In this document: positions 1,239-63,155 of the stretch, in pieces
Position numbering within the stretch: the first letter of the stretch is position 1
How the letters are laid out: every line of letters starts with the position of its first letter
From: Heliopora coerulea
Taxonomy: Eukaryota > Cnidaria > Anthozoa > Scleralcyonacea > Helioporidae
NCBI GenBank assembly: GCA_030142905.1
Contig: JASJOG010000042.1
Coordinates: 1,304,501 to 1,368,500 of the forward strand
Reading direction: 5' to 3'
Length of the DNA: 64,000 nt
The notes under the pieces: model-generated
The model's input: only the letters and a program-made list of their open reading frames with translations
Told to the model about the DNA's origin: nothing
Database searches by the model: none
Translations under genes and position numbers: made by a program

Positions 1239-1312
1239 GGCCTTGTAGCTCAGTTGGTAGAGCGTCGGACTAGTAAACCGAAGGTCGCGGGTTCGAATCC
1301 CAGCCGCGGTCA
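1239..1312 (+). mobile_element. tRNA-like SINE head
   Basis: tRNA-like sequence with intact internal pol III boxes: A box TAGCTCAGTTGG and B box GGTTCGAATCC. The D arm GCTC..GAGC pairs, the anticodon arm pairs four of five (TCGGA/ACCGA) around CTAGTAA (would read AGT). The acceptor has mismatches and the T stem is only three base pairs, so it is not a convincing functional tRNA. A tail with the self-complementary piece AGTAGAGTTTTCCTCTACT follows, which suggests a SINE. Unlike the other tRNA-like copies in the window. Confidence 0.5.
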
Positions 1313-3239: not shown

Positions 3240-5800
3240 AAAATAAATAAATACTGTAAGATTTATAAAATTACATGATGATCCAAGTCAATGCTCAAAG
3301 GCCAATCTAAATGAATACGTCTTCGATGCTTTTTTAAATGATGTTAGACAGTCAATATTTCGAATCCTTGCTGGCAAATTATTCCAAAGTTTTGCAGATG
3401 CTGATTGGAAGGCTCTGTCACCAACTGTTACAAAATATTTGCCAATGGATGGCAATAGCGTCAAACTGTAGCACAATCTTAAGTTATATCTGGAATGCGT
3501 TGTAACTGTTGTAAGATCAGTAAGATATTTCCGAGTTAATCCGTGTATACATTTAAAAGTTAACAATAAAATTTTTAAATGAATTCTATAACTAACAGGC
3601 AACCAGTGAAGCATTTCTAGAACTGGCGTTATATGGCAAAATTGAGGAGAACCTGTAACCAGTCAGGCGGCGGCATTTTGAACACGTTGGAGTTTAGTTA
3701 TATGAGCAGCTGGAAGACCATAGAGTAGTCCACTACAATAATCGATCTTACTCGAGAGGAATGCATGCACCAAACACTCAGTTTCTTGCCGAGTTAAATA
3801 CTTCCTTATTCTGGAAATGTTATAACGATGAAAAAAAGTGGAACTACTAGTCTTGTTAATATGGTGCAACATATTTAACATAAAGTCAAACCAAGACCCC
3901 AAGTTTTTAACCACAGTAGGTGATTCAGTAAGATGGTTACCCATACGTAGATGGTCTTTTTCCAACTGCTGCCTCGTACCAATAATCAACGACTCAGTCT
4001 TGTCGGGATTAAATTTGAGTTTTTCGGGCAGCATCCATTGATGTACGTCAGCAATACAAGACTCCATTGCCCGAACGGCAATGGCTTCATCCAATTTCGA
4101 TCCAAGTTTAAAGGCCAAATAGAGTTGAGTATCATCAGCAAAACAATGAACATTGGGAAGATGAGCTTCGATGATCTTAAATAGCTCACTTTTGTAAACA
4201 ATAAAGAGAAGTGGACCTAACCATGGTCCCTGTGAGACACCAAAATTCAAATTAAACTTTTTAGAATAAACATCGTCAATTACAACTCTCTGTGTTCCGT
4301 TCGAAAGGTAGGTGGAAAATCAGGATAACACTGTTCCAGATAGTCCTAGGTAATCACAAAGACGCTTGATGAGAATAGCATGTTCCACTGTGTCAAAGGC
4401 AGCACTAAGATCTAATAATACGAGTAATGTGGCATGCTAGTTGTTCATATTCATTAAGATATCTTTTTACTGTTAATAGCACCGTCTTTGTACTGATATT
4501 TTCGATAGATTGACTAAAAAATCGGAAAAAGGTTATTTGTTACTATATGTGAATGCATTTGATCAGAAACTGTCTTCTCGATCAGCTTTGACACATACTG
4601 CGAGTTACTGATAGGTCTAAAATTTTCAAAAGCCAAGTCCAGGCCTAGCCTCTTCAGCAATGGAGGTATTAAAGCATCCTTCCATTCATCAGGAAAAATT
4701 CAGACGAAAGAGAGCTGTTAATAATAGCTGTTAAAACGGGCAGCAACTCATCCAAGCATTCCTTTACAATACTAGTCGGGAGTGGATCCAAGGGGCAATA
4801 TTTTGTAGTTGCCCCCAATACAAGTTTCGCAACAGAATCCATATCCAGGAGTTCAGATTCTTTGAATGACACACACTGCTCAGGAGATGGCATGCAAGTA
4901 TTTTGACGTATACCATTACTATAAACTGTCGAATCTAGTTCGACGTGTATATTTGTAAATTTTTTTCACGAAGAATAGCCCCATATCATTAGCGACCTTT
5001 ATCTTGTTGCAATTTGGCGGAAAGTGCGTCTTATGACCTTGATTAAAAGTGCCTTGGTAACTGAAGATAATTCTTTGTTGCCTGAATTCTCACTAATTAA
5101 ATTACTATAGGACTCACTTCGTGCTCTGTTCATTAAATAAGTTGTCTTGTTCCTTGCACACTTAAATGCCTGTAAGTCAGCATCAAGTTTAGTGGTTCTC
5201 CATCTAAGTTCAGCTCTCCGACGTTTCCTTTTAGCTTCTCTAATTTCTTAATATGCACGCTCTCAAGCTGTTCTCTCAGAAAAACTTTCAGAGTCCCTGA
5301 CGGGAATCGAACCCGTAACCTTCTGATCGCCGGTGAGATGCTCTAACCATTAAGCTACAAAGACTCAGATGTTGAGCGAAGGTTAAATTTGTGTCCTGGT
5401 TCGTATAGATGATAGTGAACCAAGGAACACGGATTCTGACAACTACAGATCTAACATGAAGAGGTGCATGTTTATCTAGAAGGTCCGCTGAGGTGGCATT
5501 ATAACAATTAATCAATCCATCCAGTTCATTGGGTGGACGCTGACATAAATTTGAGGGACGTAAATCTTCCTTGAACGACTTCCTACTGATGCTCTTAAGT
5601 TTACGATTTGACATCTGCTTCAGAAGGTGGTTAGGCTTAGTGAAATCTAAGTCACACAACACAGTGGAATGGTCAGACAAAAAACAGTTAGCTACAGGCG
5701 GGCACTTGATAATAGTATTCGTTTTTCGTGTAATAATCAAATCAAGAATGTGACCAGATACCTGCGTGATTGACTGTACATGCTGCTCAAAACCCAAGGA
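3240..5800 (-). mobile_element. Decayed CR1/L2-like LINE (endonuclease end plus RT)
   Basis: A 5'-truncated non-LTR retrotransposon in reverse orientation. In element order: end of the apurinic endonuclease (5797-5405), with GHILDLIITRK and FLSDHSTVLCDLDF; a basic linker (about 5260-5130) whose frame resumes as EIREAKRKRRRAE; the RT fingers/palm, including LPTSIVKECLDELLPVLT near 4770 and [13 protein letters not shown] near 4400; the block GVSQGPWLGPLLF plus the catalytic HCFADDTQLY near 4140; and the C-terminal MLHWLPVSYRIHLKILLLTF (3614 downward). A microsatellite-like AATAAATAAATA tail ends it near 3243. Several stops and frame changes show it is dead. A tRNA-SINE interrupts it at about 5260-5410. 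CR1 versus L2 clade cannot be settled by eye. Confidence 0.88.
5255..5412 (-). mobile_element. tRNA-derived SINE nested in the LINE
   Basis: The tRNA-like body is 5292-5364 (reverse). It folds into a full cloverleaf: acceptor GTCTTTG/CAGGGAC, D arm GCTT/GAGC, anticodon arm TCTCA/TCAGA around CCGGCGA (one C.C mismatch; would read GGC), and a perfect T stem ACGGG/CCCGT with B box GGTTCGATTCC. Position 33 is C rather than the near-universal U, and the anticodon varies between copies (GGC here, GGT and GAC at 62.8-63.1 kb), so these are SINE heads, not a tRNA isotype. The leader CTTCGCTCAACATCTGAGT and the trailer with AACAGCTTGAGAGCGTGCAT recur at 62.6-63.15 kb. LINE coding sequence resumes on both sides. 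Confidence 0.85.
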
Positions 5801-13040: not shown

Positions 13041-14034
13041 ATGCAACAAGGGTACTCATTTTATCGTGGAAAAGGAGAGTTTCATTGCGACAAAACCACA
13101 TGGCATGCTCATTTTTACTCGAAACCACCGGCACGACCAACTCCACACTTCGTCGAAGATATTTTGGGGTTGAAGTCTCGCGGACGAGACCAAGACAAGA
13201 GAGACACAATTGAGGATATTATTGTCGATGAGCAGATTACAGATTCAAGGGGTGATGTATTTGTGGACGTGTCTTGCATTCGCAAATCGAAGCTGAAGAA
13301 TAAGAGCAAATCGAGAATTAAATGCTCCAATGCAATTGAAGATAAAGGTATGTGGAGCTAAGGATCTGAGTAGTCGAGCTGTAAATGTGGCCCTCATTTC
13401 TATTTATATTTGTTCGTTCATGATTCTGTACAGACTGCAGTAAAATATATGTGCGAGTATAGGACATGTCAAAAGATGTGGTTTATAGCTGACGCGTATC
13501 GGGATTATCTGCCTTGTAATTATATGGGGGCTATTAATGTTCGACTGGATTACTTGACATTCTCCCTTTAATTGTGTAGATCCTGTTCGCTACAAAGACA
13601 AGATACCTTGTTCGCAAAAGACTCCGAAGAAAGAACCAAGTTTGAAGACAGAAAGTAGTGAGTCGAAGAGGAAAAAGAAAGCTCGAACCACGTTCACAGG
13701 TCGGCAAATATGGGAGCTTGAGAACACATTTAAGGACAAGAAGTATTTGACTGCGGCGGAAAGGAATGAGCTAGCGCAATTACTTAACGTAACGGACAAC
13801 CAAGTTAAAATATGGTTTCAAAATAGACGAACCAAGTGGAAGAAAAATGTGAAAAACACGGGAGAGGGTTTACCAAAGAGTGGAAACGATTATGAGGAAG
13901 GTTACAACGAGAAAGAGTGTGAGACGAACCAAGAGGAGGAGGAGGTGGAAGTGGAAGGAAGTGCCACTCCTGACAGAGCAATTGACAGTAAAAATGAAAG
14001 TGGCAGTGGCAGTTACGAGGACGAAAACGACTGA
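13041..14034 (+). CDS. NK-like (ANTP class) homeobox transcription factor
   Basis: Sequence-specific nuclear DNA-binding regulator. Two exons: 13041-13347 and 13580-14034, split in phase 1 (AAAG|GTATGT donor, TTGTGTAG|AT acceptor), 253 residues. An engrailed-homology-like repressor motif HFVEDILGL lies at residues 36-44, as in many NK proteins that recruit Groucho. The homeodomain is residues 134-193: R5-T-T-F8 in the arm, helix 3 [16 protein letters not shown] with W48, F49, Q50, N51 and T54. A basic linker precedes it and a Glu-rich acidic tail (EEEEVEVE) follows it to the end. The homeodomain is ANTP-class NKL; the [12 protein letters not shown] and KKYL..AER pattern recalls the lms/CG13424 (Nedx) group from memory, unverified. 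The start is the first ATG of the open exon. An AATAAA lies 136 bp after the stop. Alternative upstream exons cannot be excluded. Confidence 0.92.
13348..13579 (+). other. Intron of the homeobox gene
   Basis: 232-bp intron with GTATGT donor and TTAATTGTGTAG acceptor. Joining the flanks restores one frame (codon GAT across the junction), supporting the splice. Confidence 0.85.
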
Positions 14035-39440: not shown

Positions 39441-39554
39441 TGCTTCGAGACGTGGACACTGGACGCAGACGTAAAGAGCTAAAGAGATTTGGGACTTTTC
39501 AGTCCTTGAAAGGTCCATGTAAGCACTTTGACGACGCTTTCAAGTTTGGATAAA

Positions 39555-40442
39555 ATGCAACAGGAAAGTAACTTAACATCACGTTGGACAAACACAACTT
39601 CTCCACCATTACTCAACCTTCCGCTGGTGATTATCTTTGGAGCTCTCATCCCGCTCACTTTAGTGGGAAACACTTTAGTTTGCGTTGCTTTCATAAAGTT
39701 CCAACGTCTACGCAACGCTACAAATTGCTTTCTGTTGAGTTTAGCCATTAGTGACCTAGCTGTGGGACTAATCCTGATTCCGTTTTGGATTGCTTTCACT
39801 GTGACCGGATTTTCAGACATGCCACAGGGTTTCATGACAGTATGGATTATACTCGATATCACTTGCAGCGTAGCATCCATGACGAACCTCGCAAGTGTGA
39901 GTCTCGAGCGTTGGTACGGAGTCACACACCCATTTCGCCATCGGATTATGCGCACAAGCGACGCAATGGTTATGTCAGGTTTCTCGTGGTTGTACGCAAT
40001 AGGAATTGCCATGCTTTATCTTGTAAAAGAAACGTCTGGGTGGAAATTCACCGCGATCACCATACTCGGCCTATGCATGCCGTTTTTCGTCATGGCAATT
40101 TGCTATTCTGGGATCGCCCGATCGGTTAAACAACAAATACCAGGTGGTAACCACCAGTCTGGCAGAGAGTGCAAGACAATCCGGGCTTTAATTTTGATCT
40201 CGGTCATATTCTTCATTTGTTGGTTTCCATTCATCTTCGGATCTCTTCTCACAAACTACTGCCATTCTTGTGCTGCCTACGTTAAACACAGGCCAGTGAT
40301 TGTTATCTTTCCAAAGTTCTTGCACTACAGTAACTCGTGCATTAATCCTTTCCTCTACGCTTTCCTGAGCCCGAGTTTTAAATCGGCCTTTCAGCAGCTT
40401 TTTTGTGGCGCACGAAATAAAAGACGGATTCAGCATGAATGA
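39555..40442 (+). CDS. Amine-like class A GPCR (copy A, short tail)
   Basis: Plasma-membrane seven-helix receptor, intronless, 295 residues. N-glycosylation sites N6 and N13. Landmarks: N39 (1.50, GNTLV), D67 (2.50, LAISD), D101 (3.32), ERW instead of DRY with R119 (3.50), P176 (5.50), CWFP with W223 (6.48), Y258 (7.43), NPFLY at 264-268, and a membrane-proximal Cys 284. D3.32 with Y7.43 is the amine-binding signature of aminergic receptors; helix 5 lacks the usual serines, and the conserved C3.25 is Met here with no Cys in ECL2. ECL3 has CHSC. Starts at MQQESN because the upstream ATG used in copy B is followed by TAA here. The C-tail ends at RIQHE; the homologous tail continues in frame to about 40560 but with TGA and TAA stops. 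Ligand unknown. Confidence 0.9.
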   Translation: MQQESNLTSRWTNTTSPPLLNLPLVIIFGALIPLTLVGNTLVCVAFIKFQRLRNATNCFLLSLAISDLAVGLILIPFWIAFTVTGFSDMPQGFMTVWIILDITCSVASMTNLASVSLERWYGVTHPFRHRIMRTSDAMVMSGFSWLYAIGIAMLYLVKETSGWKFTAITILGLCMPFFVMAICYSGIARSVKQQIPGGNHQSGRECKTIRALILISVIFFICWFPFIFGSLLTNYCHSCAAYVKHRPVIVIFPKFLHYSNSCINPFLYAFLSPSFKSAFQQLFCGARNKRRIQHE

Positions 40443-51141: not shown

Positions 51142-52203
51142 ATGAGCAACCTGACGACGTTTTCGAGTTTGGATAAAATGCAGCAGGAAAGTAACTTGAC
51201 ATCACGTTTGACAAACACAACTTCTCCACCATTACTCAACCTTCCGTTGGTGATTATCCTTGGGGCTCTCATCCCTTTCATTTTAGTTGGAAACACTTTG
51301 GTTTGCGTTGCATTCATAAAGTTCCAACGTCTACGCAATGCTACAAATTGCTTTCTGTTCAGTTTAGCCATCAGTGATCTAGCTGTGGGGCTAATCTTGA
51401 TTCCGTTTTGGATCGCTTTCACTGTGAACGGATTTTCAGACATGCCGCAAGGTTTCACGAAGGTATGGAGGATTCTCGACGTAACTTGCAGCGTAGCATC
51501 CATGACAAACCTCGCAAGCGTGAGTATCGAGCGTTGGTACGGAGTCACACACCCATTTCGACATCTGAGCATGAGCACAAGTCACGCAATAGTGATGTCG
51601 AGCCTTTCGTGGTTCTACGCAATAGGAACTGCCATGTTCTATCTTGTACAAGGAGAGCCTGAGTGGATATTCACCGTGATCACTATACTTGGCCTTTGCA
51701 TCCCGTTTTTCATCATGACAATTTGCTATTCTGTGATCGCCCGAGTGGTTAAACGGAAAACTCCTGGTGGTAACCACCAGTCTGGCAGAGAGTGCAAGAC
51801 AATTAGGACCTTAATTTTGATCTCGGTTATATTCCTTGTTTGTTGGTTTCCGTTCATCCTCGGCTCTCTTCTCACAAACTACTGCCATTCTTGTGCTGCC
51901 TACGTTAACCACAGGCCAGCGATGATTATCTTTCCAAAGGTCTTGCACTATAGTCATTCATGCATTAATCCGTTCCTCTATGCTATCCTAAGCCCGAGTT
52001 TTAAATCGGCCTTCGAACAGCTTTTTCGTTGCACCCGAAGAAGCAGAAGGATTCAGCGTGGCAGGAATTCCTCGTCCGATAATAGCCGGACGGGAATTAA
52101 CACCAAACGGTTTAATCTTACTGCTAGCTTCAAAGACAAAAGAAGGAAGTCAGGTCTCGAATACAACCAAGTCTCGCTTAAAATGAACAACAACTTTGTG
52201 TAA
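51142..52203 (+). CDS. Amine-like class A GPCR (copy B, full tail)
   Basis: Single-exon, 353-residue paralogue of the receptor at 39.6 kb, roughly 80% identical across the helices. An extra N-terminal 12 residues (MSNLTTFSSLDK, with an N-glycosylation site) come from an upstream ATG that is not usable in copy A. Landmarks shift by 12: D113 (3.32), ERW with R131 (3.50), W235 (6.48), Y270 (7.43), NPFLY at 276-280. C3.25 is Thr and ECL2 has no Cys, as in copy A. Changes cluster in loops: ECL2 (VQGEPEWIF vs VKETSGWKF), ICL2 (HLSMSTSH vs HRIMRTSD) and helix-3 entry (FTKVWR vs FMTVWI), which hints at altered ligand or coupling. The 65-residue tail is rich in Arg/Lys/Ser (RRSRRIQRGRNSSS), with likely phosphorylation sites. 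Signals through G proteins by family; ligand unknown. Confidence 0.93.
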   Translation: MSNLTTFSSLDKMQQESNLTSRLTNTTSPPLLNLPLVIILGALIPFILVGNTLVCVAFIKFQRLRNATNCFLFSLAISDLAVGLILIPFWIAFTVNGFSDMPQGFTKVWRILDVTCSVASMTNLASVSIERWYGVTHPFRHLSMSTSHAIVMSSLSWFYAIGTAMFYLVQGEPEWIFTVITILGLCIPFFIMTICYSVIARVVKRKTPGGNHQSGRECKTIRTLILISVIFLVCWFPFILGSLLTNYCHSCAAYVNHRPAMIIFPKVLHYSHSCINPFLYAILSPSFKSAFEQLFRCTRRSRRIQRGRNSSSDNSRTGINTKRFNLTASFKDKRRKSGLEYNQVSLKMNNNFV

Positions 52204-58274: not shown

Positions 58275-58347
58275 ATGACATTCCTCGTTTTAAAAACCCT
58301 GTTAGGATTCCTGTGTTTTTGTAGTTACTATGCTGCACCTCTCAACC
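58275..58347 (+). CDS. Signal-peptide exon of the low-complexity secreted protein
   Basis: Exon 1 of the gene completed at 59782-61019. ATGACATTCC opens 24 codons: MTFLVLKTLLGFLCFCSYYA is a textbook signal peptide (hydrophobic core, small residue at the end), with likely cleavage before APLN. It ends in phase 1 at a strong donor AACC|GTAAGT. Splicing to TAAAG|AGTTTCG at 59782 gives a Gln codon and enters the repeat frame without a shift, which is the main support for the model. Confidence 0.68.
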
Positions 58348-59184
58348 GTAAGTACATTTAACTTTTGGGCTTTAACACTTTTACAACAGATGTCTTGTGT
58401 TCCTGAATAAAATCATTTAGCAAAAGCAAGCATAAAATCCTTAACGGGGGCCTTGGAAATGAAGTGGTTAAAGCACGCAAATGTTTTCCATGTTCATATA
58501 TCCTTGTCCCACGAAGAACATGTGAAAAGTTAACTTCAGTATTCCTATTGGTGCTTGTTTGTGGATCACGTAATGACAGTCAGACGAAAAGTTTGAGCCA
58601 TTCACAGGCTTGGACTTGACATTGTGTCATCGTACAGTAAAACAGTAATCAGCCATTGTTCTGTGACGCGATGGTGCAATGGCCTCTCCAAGCCTGGCCA
58701 TTCAGTAATATGTGAAAGATAATGTCCAACACGTTGGTAGTTGAACCAAATTAAATTGCTGCATAAGCCTATAGGATTGTTGCAATAATACCAATTCAAT
58801 ATATGATGATATTTTAGTGCAATAGATTTCTGGAAGGGCCTTACTGAGTCGCCTTATTCATTGGGCTCCTAGTCAGTCGAGTTGGCGAATTTGCTATGAT
58901 TATTCTGAACAGTTAAACACATTTAAGGGAAGCCTCTCAAAGGGAAAAGTCTATAAACCCTAAAATTCCTTGAAAATGTTGTGTGTTTCAAATGTCGGTT
59001 GTTGTAATCCGGATCTCCATAAATTTTCAAACAAAGACTTTAGAATTTCAAAAACTTCAGTAAACATTTACCTTTGCCGTAATCTGCTAACAAAATTGTT
59101 TGAAGATTATTAGCGAGGCTGAGATGTTTGATCAATGATTCATTCCCATGCTTATGCGTGTATTTGTGAAAATTTTCTTTTTTC

Positions 59185-59575
59185 ATGAGTATTATACATC
59201 AAATAACATACATCAAACATCACATATCATATATCATATATCATATACCATATATCATATATAATACATCATATATCATACATTATACAATCATAGATCA
59301 TACAATCATAGATCATACATCATCCACCATACATTACATATTATATATCATATGTCGTGACATGATACGTATCAAGTATCATGCGTGATGTATCATGTGT
59401 CACGTATCATGTATCATATATCATATGTAATATATCAAACACCACATATAACATACTGTATATGTCATATGTCATATGTCACAATCATTTGTCATATGTC
59501 ATATGTCATTTGTTGCATTCTATACGTTTTATGTTATACTTTGTATGTTGTATACATGATATGTTATAGGTTATA
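59185..59575. repeat. ATATCAT-type tandem repeat in intron
   Basis: About 390 bp of degenerate ATATCATATATCAT / CATATGTCATATGTC units inside the 1.43-kb intron (58348-59781). Read as Tyr/His/Ile repeats in all frames; not coding. Confidence 0.92.
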
Positions 59576-59781
59576 GGTTACAAGTTACAGGTTGCATGTC
59601 ACATGTTTTTATGTTGGTGAATCAAGTAAACAACTAACGAGAAGTTCATCAAGAACACTGATCGAGACGTTGTCATGTTAAAAAGGCTCGTCTTGCTTAT
59701 GATTTCCTTATGACTATTTCACGAGCTTTGGAAGTTAGATATCATATGACCAATTTTTGCTTTGTATTTATGTTTTTAAAG

Positions 59782-61019
59782 AGTTTCGTAAATTGGAAGT
59801 TTCCGGGGAATCAGAAGAATCTCGGTATGAATCTGGTGAATCAGGAGAGTCTGGCATGTTTGGGGAATCTGGTGAATCGGTTGAGTCAGGAGGATCGGGG
59901 ACATTTGGCTCAGGAAGAGCTAATAAGCCAGGTGAATTTGGTGAATCAGGAGCATCTGGAGCATCACATACGCCTGATGAATCTGAGAAACCTGAGAAAT
60001 TAGGTACGACAAGTGGATCAGGAGAGTTTGGTGAATCAGGAGAATCTTATGAGTCTGGAGATCCTGAAGAAAATGAAAAATCTCGTGAATCAGGAGGGTC
60101 GGGAGAATTTGGAAAATCTAATGAATTCGGAGGATCTGGTGAATTAGGAGAATCTGGCAGATTAAAAGAACCTGGTGAATCAGTCTTATCGGGTGAGTTT
60201 GGAGAATCTGGTGAATCACGAAAATCCGATGAATCTGGACAGTCTGGTGAATTAGAGCAATCTGGTGAATCTGACTTATCTGGTTCAGAGTTCGGAGAAT
60301 CAGGTGAACCAGGGACAACTGGTAAGTTCGGAATACATGGTCCTGAAGGATCAGGATATTTGAATCACATCAGGAAAACTGATGATTCTAGGAAGGTGAC
60401 GAATCAAGAGATCCTCGACAATTGGAAGAATCTCGCGAATCCGGAGATTTTCACAAACCAGGATCACCTGTTGGATCAGTGGAATCAACTTAGCCAGAAG
60501 AATGTGGTCAACAAGGGTAACCTGGACAGCCGGGACACCTTAGTGAATTGGGGAGACCCGGTAGATCAGGAAAATCTCGTGAATCAGAGGGATCTAATGA
60601 ATCAGCGGAACCTGGTCAGTAAGGACAACGGGGAGAATGAGGGTGGATTGGACAATAGGGGCACAGTGAATCAGGGGTATCTGGCGAATCCGAGGAATTC
60701 TGTGGATCAGGAGAGTCAGACGAAACAAGAGGCGCTGGTTTATGACAGGAATCTTGTCAATAAAGGAAATCTGGTTAACTGGAGGAATCTGGTGAATCCG
60801 GGTAGAATTGTGAATGAGGAGAATTTTATGAATCAGGGGGATCGAGAAAGTATTGTGAATCGGAAGAATTTCCTGGATGAGAGGAGTCAGGGAAACCAGG
60901 ATGAGCAGGTGAGCCCGAGGAACGTGGTGAATCCAAGGAATCTTGCAAATCAGGAGCGTTCTATGGGTCAACTGAATGAGCAAATATTGGAAAGTCTTGA
61001 CGACCTCGAAATGAAATAA
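59782..61019 (+). CDS. Secreted Glu/Ser/Gly then Asn/Gln/Leu repeat protein, main exon
   Basis: With exon 1 gives 436 residues. After the signal peptide and QFRKLEVSG come residues ~30-217 of GESGES/EFGESGE repeats, acidic and without Cys or aromatic clusters; then residues ~220-436 of NLVNQ(R/E/G)NL-type repeats. Both halves derive from one nucleotide unit, GGTGAATCAGGAGAATCT, but are read in different registers, with the switch near 60358 (GGATCAGGATATTTGAATCA). The second half has no stop in the register used; the first-half register has at least 16 stops there. The product should be an extracellular, disordered, acidic protein (matrix, mucus or silk-like are guesses). A GTAAGT after ACTG at 60322 offers another model in which the second half is intronic. 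Stop TAA at 61017; AATAAA overlaps it, with ATTAAA at 61043 and AATAAA at 61105. Confidence 0.62.
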
Positions 61020-61042
61020 AACTATCCTGCTGCAGATGTTTA

Positions 61043-61110
61043 ATTAAAGTATTCCTTGAGTTGAAAAAGATGATCGTTGTCTTTCGTTAGATTAATTTTA
61101 TTGAAATAAA
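61043..61110 (+). terminator. Candidate poly(A) signals of the repeat-protein gene
   Basis: ATTAAA at 61043-61048 and AATAAA at 61105-61110 follow the stop codon at 61017-61019; another AATAAA (61015-61020) overlaps it. Confidence 0.5.
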
Positions 61111-62577: not shown

Positions 62578-62937
62578 TGTTAAATGTGGTAGCTTGGTAT
62601 ATATATGATTTTATGCGCATGCTATCAAGCTATTCTACTCAGAAAAACCTTCTGAGTCCCCGACGGGAACCAAACCCGTGACCATCTGATTGCCAGTGAG
62701 ATGCTCAAACCATTGGGCTACATGGACTCAGTAGTAGTCAGTACGTAAATGTAACCTTCACTCACCATCTGAGTTCATGTAGCTTAATGGTTAGAGCATC
62801 TCACTGGTGATCAGAAGGTTATGGGTTTAATTCCCGTCAGGGACTCAGAAAGTTTTTTTGAGTAGAACAGCTTGAGAGTGTGTGCATAAGATCATATATC
62901 TACCAAGCTACCACATTTAAAAACATCATTGATTAAC
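62578..62937. mobile_element. Head-to-head SINE pair forming a ~360-bp palindrome
   Basis: Two GAGTC-type SINEs in inverted orientation: tRNA-like bodies 62655-62727 (reverse) and 62773-62845 (forward). The similarity goes through the bodies and the tails to the ends: TTAAATGTGGTAGCTTGGTA at 62580 faces ACCAAGCTACCACATTTAA at 62919, and GCTATTCTACTCAGAAAAAC faces AGTTTTTTTGAGTAGAACAG. Forward copy cloverleaf: GTTCATG/CAGGGAC acceptor, loop CTGGTGA (would read GGT). Confidence 0.88.
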
Positions 62938-62984: not shown

Positions 62985-63155
62985 GTTACCATCATTATGA
63001 ACCAGTACATAAATGTAACCTTTGCTCACCATCTGAGTCAATGTAGCTCAATGGTTAGAGCATCTCACCGACGATCAGAAGGTTACAGGTTCAATTCCCA
63101 TCAGGGACTCAGAAAGTTCTTCTAAATAAAATAGCTTGAGAGCATATGCATAAAA
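62985..63155 (+). mobile_element. tRNA-derived SINE, third copy in cluster
   Basis: tRNA-like body 63037-63109: acceptor GTCAATG/CAGGGAC, A box TAGCTCAATGG, loop CCGACGA (would read GAC), T stem ACAGG with B box GGTTCAATTCC. The leader ACATAAATGTAACCTTTGCTC and the tail AATAGCTTGAGAGCATATGC repeat those of the forward copy 264 bp upstream. Confidence 0.85.

Follow-up and report, generated by a model that had tools for sequence, protein, structure and literature searches.

The source of a new protein domain is usually sought in duplication, in exon shuffling or in de novo birth. The locus described here, an open frame on the forward strand of a 64,000-nucleotide stretch of DNA from Heliopora coerulea (the whole stretch that was analysed, called the window below), raises the question of whether a chemically distinct protein segment can also be formed when part of a tandem repeat moves into another reading frame and both readings are kept. 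We consider here the gene model, the repeat that underlies it, the signs of selection in each register, and the explanations that compete for the result.

Gene model and predicted product

Exon 2 (59782-61019, + strand) is a single open frame of 411 codons, and forms part of an open frame of 426 codons (59739-61019, +) that closes at the TAA at 61017-61019. Upstream of it lies a predicted exon 1 of 73 nt (58275-58347, +), which has a start codon, would encode the signal-peptide-like leader MTFLVLKTLLGFLCFCSYYAAPLN, and ends in phase 1 before GTAAGT. Joining the two exons in phase by script gives a product of 436 residues. The predicted phase-1 intron between them (58348-59781, +) has a degenerate TATCATA array inside it, at 59190-59509. 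Its acceptor, at 59782, shares the highest pyrimidine content with two other acceptors of the splice-site scan. Its donor, AACC/GTAAGT, is absent from the 14 top donors of the same scan. The original prediction described a clean signal-peptide exon and hence a secreted protein. The leader is indeed hydrophobic and its phase fits an in-frame join to exon 2, but the exon is a predicted one and its donor carries an unusual C at -1. The product is best described as a predicted secreted low-complexity protein.

Within exon 2, the first half (59782-60365, +) is a diverged tandem array of GGTGAATCAGGAGAATCT, read as Gly-Glu-Ser in a Gly-X-Y-like manner. It is followed by a junction (60366-60392, +) in which the DNA repeat changes register once, by a net -1 or +2, through an indel whose exact form is ambiguous, and by a second half (60393-60971, +), in which the same 18-nt unit is more diverged and is read as Asn-Leu-Val-Asn-Gln-x. 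The weakly repeat-like C-terminal tail LNEQILESLDDLEMK (60972-61019, +) ends with the TAA. Two AATAAA signals were read from the sequence, one at 61015-61020 (+), which overlaps the stop codon, and the other at 61105-61110 (+). The frame runs on from the second half to the stop inside the first AATAAA, with no intron between them.

Five Rfam tRNA matches occur elsewhere in the window (1239-1312, 5292-5364, 62655-62727, 62773-62845 and 63037-63109), of which ARAGORN gives four; three of the matches share a span of less than 460 bases, and these could be short elements derived from tRNAs. By eye, a frame at 3663-4319 (-) resembles a piece of reverse transcriptase (FADDTQLYLAF), and a frame at 13558-14034 (+) has a homeobox-like stretch.

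One repeat unit and a single register switch

The repeat unit was sought in each half alone (59805-60342 and 60392-61009) by EM from random positions, using 30 starts for the real sequences and 10 for the controls. The same 18-nt unit, GGTGAATCAGGAGAATCT, was recovered de novo from each half, with scores of 294 for the first (91-116 in four codon-shuffled controls) and 255 for the second (86-108, again in four controls). Near matches to the unit, with three mismatches or fewer, number ten in the whole window, seven in the first half and three in the second, compared to an average of 0.05 in shuffles of the window. At lags of 9 and 18 nt the first half has autocorrelations of 0.50 and 0.53, and the second half 0.42 and 0.47, compared to 0.21-0.29 at lags off the period (3, 6, 8, 10, 12, 15, 17 and 19 nt). 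Differences from the unit amount to 145 of 538 bases (27%) in the first half and 210 of 618 (34%) in the second. Tandem Repeats Finder called an array only at 60079-60273 and nothing in the second half, which is evidently too diverged for that program.

A cyclic alignment to the unit assigns 59782-60360 to register class 0 (mod 3) and 60392-61009 to class 1, and is ambiguous at 60361-60391 and in the last ten bases. Register changes within each half are net multiples of three; they include a five-base detour at 60844-60848, where two non-triplet changes cancel in this way. When 30-nt windows were scored at a step of 24, class 0 was best in 25 out of 25 (59790-60366) and class 1 in 26 out of 26 (60390-60990), so that all 51 fit one switch, with near ties at 60366 and 60990. 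The relationship is also seen at the protein level: in a protein search of the genome, the DNA of the first half, translated in the other register, matches residues 206-354 of the second half with 40% identity (E 5.4e-5, 4 stops).

Both parts therefore derive from one DNA unit, read in different registers of one open frame. This is what the original prediction had proposed, on the basis of a single repeat read in two frames with a switch at about 60358. The same 18-mer and the one net register change are as predicted, although the alignment and the windows place the switch nearer 60366-60392.

Stops and selection in each register

Stop codons were compared with a neutral simulation in which the unit is mutated according to the substitution matrix of the half concerned, a matrix that already includes the effect of any selection; codons with a stop in the consensus were omitted from the counts. 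In the first half, the Gly-Glu-Ser register has no stop in 179 codons where 3.1 are expected (P 0.043), the Asn/Gln register has 4 in 176 (6.2 expected), and the third register 10 in 146 (9.9 expected). In the second half it is the Asn/Gln register that is free of stops, with 0 in 203 codons where 6.1 are expected (P 0.002); the Gly-Glu-Ser register has 14 in 204 (11.2 expected) and the third register 4 in 169 (6.4 expected). The reciprocal contrasts give P values of 0.00014 and 0.046. For the second half the test used the frame that runs on from the first, so that no choice among three frames was involved. The earlier count of at least 16 stops in the second half in the old register agrees with the 17 raw stops found from 60380 to 60998 (the figure of 14 refers to aligned codons in 60392-61009), and the first-half stop reported near 60003 in the Asn/Gln register corresponds to the first of the four, at 60001. 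Stop avoidance in the used register is thus supported in both halves.

Other measures distinguish the halves. The first half has a synonymous excess (P 0.018) and BLOSUM conservation (P 0.018 with stops included, 0.046 without). Four-fold sites of CTN and GTN codons in the second half have diverged in 32 of 68 cases, compared to 178 of 550 elsewhere (P 0.02) and to 14 of 62 at the corresponding unit positions in the first half (P 0.006), these P values being indicative because the test was picked after viewing the per-position table. Four-fold sites of the first half follow the same trend (40 of 119 against 105 of 419 diverged, P 0.08). It had been suggested that each half is purified only in the register in which it is used. 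The stops, and the post hoc result for second-half four-fold sites, agree with this, but for the second half neither the synonymous excess (P 0.13) nor BLOSUM conservation (P 0.10 with stops, 0.33 without) supports it. Support for amino-acid constraint is moderate for the first half and not clear for the second. Judged from the DNA, the stop pattern and the four-fold divergence support the suggestion that both halves are translated.

Homologues and paralogues

No homologue of the whole exon-2 product was found in the protein collection at E values up to 0.001 among the 7995 candidates listed, nor of residues 193-411 at E values up to 1 among 518 candidates. A neighbouring receptor was used as a yardstick for this search. 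It found 40 proteins, the best-named being from the octocoral Dendronephthya gigantea (54%), and the collection thus contains at least some octocoral sequence. Searches for the exon-2 product gave 3 pattern matches in viral contigs and 18 in bacterial and archaeal contigs, none of which was confirmed, and no match among PDB sequences.

The window has two similar single-exon GPCR frames, at 51172-52200 and 39510-40442 (+), of which the second is probably the 82% match of the receptor search. The receptor search matched a Dendronephthya gigantea protein at 54% and listed Montipora proteins at 22-25%, which may be other receptor types; judged by this one gene, the DNA is more likely to be from an octocoral than from a stony coral.

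The genome (429.8 Mb in 769 contigs) was searched as well. A DNA search, which skips simple repeats, returned the locus itself only, and tblastn at E values up to 1 gave no match in the 60 kb downstream or the 40 kb upstream. The protein search at E values up to 0.1, with 59 of 59 candidates scored, gave seven rows: the locus, the first half in its other register (L013, the match described above), and five that were rejected as paralogues. L014 (G000:C760, 1421-1938; E 9.2e-5) is a near-pure 18-nt minisatellite of a different unit, AAAGCTTAGTGAATCTAC, whose best windows agree with the array at 18 of 30 bases; it has open frames on both strands. L015 is also near-pure and is a different kind of repeat, and L016 and L017 together make up a single (Gly-Glu-Ser)n array, whose unit is GGCGAGAGC. 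The near-pure (Gly-Glu-Ser)n open frame of L016 (G000:C161, 1276-1791) has 171 codons and a Pfam Collagen match of 87.4 bits, and other frames there are also open. L018 is a proline-rich collagen-like frame built on another unit. Its open frame (G000:C53, 999-3356) has 786 codons, runs off the locus and matches Pfam Collagen with 38.6 bits, and by eye another of its registers reads Leu-Val-His-Gln, resembling the second half. The genome thus appears to hold no convincing paralogue. A distant link of L014 or L016 to the exon-2 array is possible.

Composition and possible function

The first half consists of 24% Gly, 21% Glu and 20% Ser, and has a net charge of about -29. The second half has 17% Asn, followed by Leu, Asp, Gln and Val, and a net charge of about -9. 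S-x-E is a secretory-kinase site; the motif occurs 19 times in the first half (8.1 in shuffles) and not at all in the second. The halves are therefore chemically different, as had been predicted. Their mean hydropathy is nearly equal, at -1.20 and -1.19, and both lack cysteine and N-glycosylation motifs. In AlphaFold2 models made without an alignment, the mean pLDDT was 45.4 when all of exon 2 was modelled and 45.8 when the second half was modelled alone. The C-terminal tail (60972-61019) is predicted to be a helix and has the highest local confidence in both of these low-confidence models.

The first half resembles the Gly-X-Y of collagen in its 9-nt period and in having Gly often at every third place. 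The pattern G..G..G is enriched in it (16 against 2.5 in shuffles). However, the Pfam Collagen match (residues 17-60) scores 19.7 bits, which is below the cut-off of 27.2, and a long uninterrupted Gly-X-Y is absent, Gly occupying 21 of 31 cells at one of its unit positions and 19 of 29 at the other. The first half differs further from collagen in having little proline (3.7%) and Gly that is often replaced, and the second half lacks the Gly-X-Y pattern. On both counts, the Pfam score and the uninterrupted pattern, the product falls short of a collagen-like protein.

The first half would thus be acidic, Gly-X-Y-like and rich in S-x-E sites; it is probably disordered and may be phosphorylated. 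The second would form a less charged Asn/Gln/Leu/Val hexapeptide stretch. A component of matrix, mucus or sclerite is suggested, in which the first half would bind cations and the second would self-associate. On the predicted sequence, the protein would most likely serve as a secreted and disordered component of matrix or mucus that may be phosphorylated. A reading as a neuropeptide precursor was dropped on inspection.

Origin of the two registers

A pure array can be read without stops as Gly-Glu-Ser or as Asn-Leu-Val-Asn-Gln, and its third register meets a TGA in every 18 nt. A shift of net -1 or +2 from the first of these readings to the second is therefore survivable, and the opposite shift would truncate the protein. 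Our preferred explanation, to which we give a probability of roughly two in three, is that this is a two-exon octocoral gene in which a nearly pure 9/18-nt array underwent one net -1 or +2 indel that shifted its downstream part, both halves being read. The array of exon 2 would still have been nearly pure when the indel moved the downstream part into the Asn-Leu-Val-Asn-Gln register, after which both halves would have diverged, avoiding stops only in the register that each uses. The second-half stops in the Gly-Glu-Ser register are close to the level without selection, which implies that the shift came before nearly all of the divergence, or that the second half was never read in this way.

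Gly-Glu-Ser is taken to be the older reading because Gly-X-Y is the usual 9-nt reading and because the genome has another (Gly-Glu-Ser)n frame with a Pfam Collagen match. Against this, the second half is the more diverged (34% against 27%) and could be the older part. The claim that an indel created a chemically new domain therefore stands as to the one register change and the two chemistries; derivation of the second half from the first is an inference, the searches above having yielded no relative that would show the direction.

The explanations that compete with this one overlap, and their probabilities do not add to one. The second half could be an intron or alternatively skipped: an intron at 60322-61090 (+), running from the donor CTG/GTAAGT (6.7) to the acceptor tgtctttcgttag/ATT, would leave the Gly-Glu-Ser half with one further residue before a stop (by eye). 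This donor ranks top of the scan and is just before the junction, the acceptor at 61091 ties with two others as the most pyrimidine-rich, and the second half shows little amino-acid conservation beyond stop avoidance. Strong donors do, however, arise readily in the array, since the unit is itself donor-like (CTG/GTGAAT, 2.9), and there are others at 60909 (6.6) and 60193 (5.9). An intron would also have to account for the lack of stops across 203 aligned codons (6.1 expected) in the exact frame that continues from the first half, for register changes of net triplets only across about 600 nt, and for the extra divergence of second-half four-fold sites. We consider it doubtful, although it is the most serious of the competing explanations. 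Of similarly low probability is the suggestion that the second half was first non-coding, being repeat DNA past an older stop that was captured in whichever register was open. The absence of any trace of former Gly-Glu-Ser constraint there (14 stops, 11.2 expected) fits this, but the same absence would be expected after a shift in a nearly pure array, and the outcome is the same as in our preferred explanation, birth alone being different.

Somewhat less probable again is that the ancestral reading is Asn/Gln, with a Gly-Glu-Ser half that is derived and was amplified later. The first half is less diverged, and its best ungapped self-match scores 63.6 over 266 nt compared to 20.2 in the second half; yet from its score and length this self-match is only about 65% identical, which does not establish late amplification, and the usual 9-nt reading and the other Gly-Glu-Ser array in the genome point the other way. 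There is finally the ordinary explanation, that such repeats are open in several registers by nature or that the switch is an assembly error. The arrays L014-L016 are indeed open in several frames, and a single stop occurs over about 200 codons in one antisense frame of the first half. But the two halves are 27% and 34% away from the unit and carry 4 and 14 stops in the unused register, the simulation takes both unit and divergence into account, and 14 scattered stops could not come from one base error. Assembly error or mere repeat openness is unlikely, and is the explanation to which we give least weight.

Relation to known systems and significance

In the S-antigen of Plasmodium falciparum, one DNA repeat is reportedly translated in different frames between alleles, as Saint and co-workers are said to have described in 1987. 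The likeness to the present locus is that one DNA repeat is read in different reading frames in natural repeat proteins; the difference is that there the frames differ between alleles, and here both are in one protein. Osmanli et al. (2025, PMC12871928) argue that repeat proteins with a new chemistry can arise through frameshifts in tandem repeats. The available part of that study concerns computed frameshifts of reference proteomes, and presents no natural protein with both registers in tandem. Frameshifted segments can be kept in proteins through compensatory frameshift pairs (Biba et al., 2022, PMC8935012), and some protein properties are robust to frameshifts, mean hydropathy being kept (Bartonek et al., 2020, PMC7084103). 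Our locus is similar in that a frameshifted segment is kept with almost the same hydropathy, and differs in being a tandem array without a second indel that restores the frame.

Among the papers listed by literature searches, which cover subscription journals weakly, there was no natural protein with both registers in tandem, although this is weak evidence. Frame change in repeat genes has precedents in the work above, and both registers in one protein would be a new variant. The chances seem to us about even that the two survivable registers of one DNA repeat are kept side by side here as two chemically distinct secreted domains, arising from a single uncompensated indel in a natural animal protein. 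With one repeat visibly read in two registers, and with stops missing from each register only where that register is used, the locus would be a compact natural test of the long-standing idea that repeats yield new proteins when their frame changes. It would also test which repeat units survive a frame change, two of the three registers being open in the pure unit.
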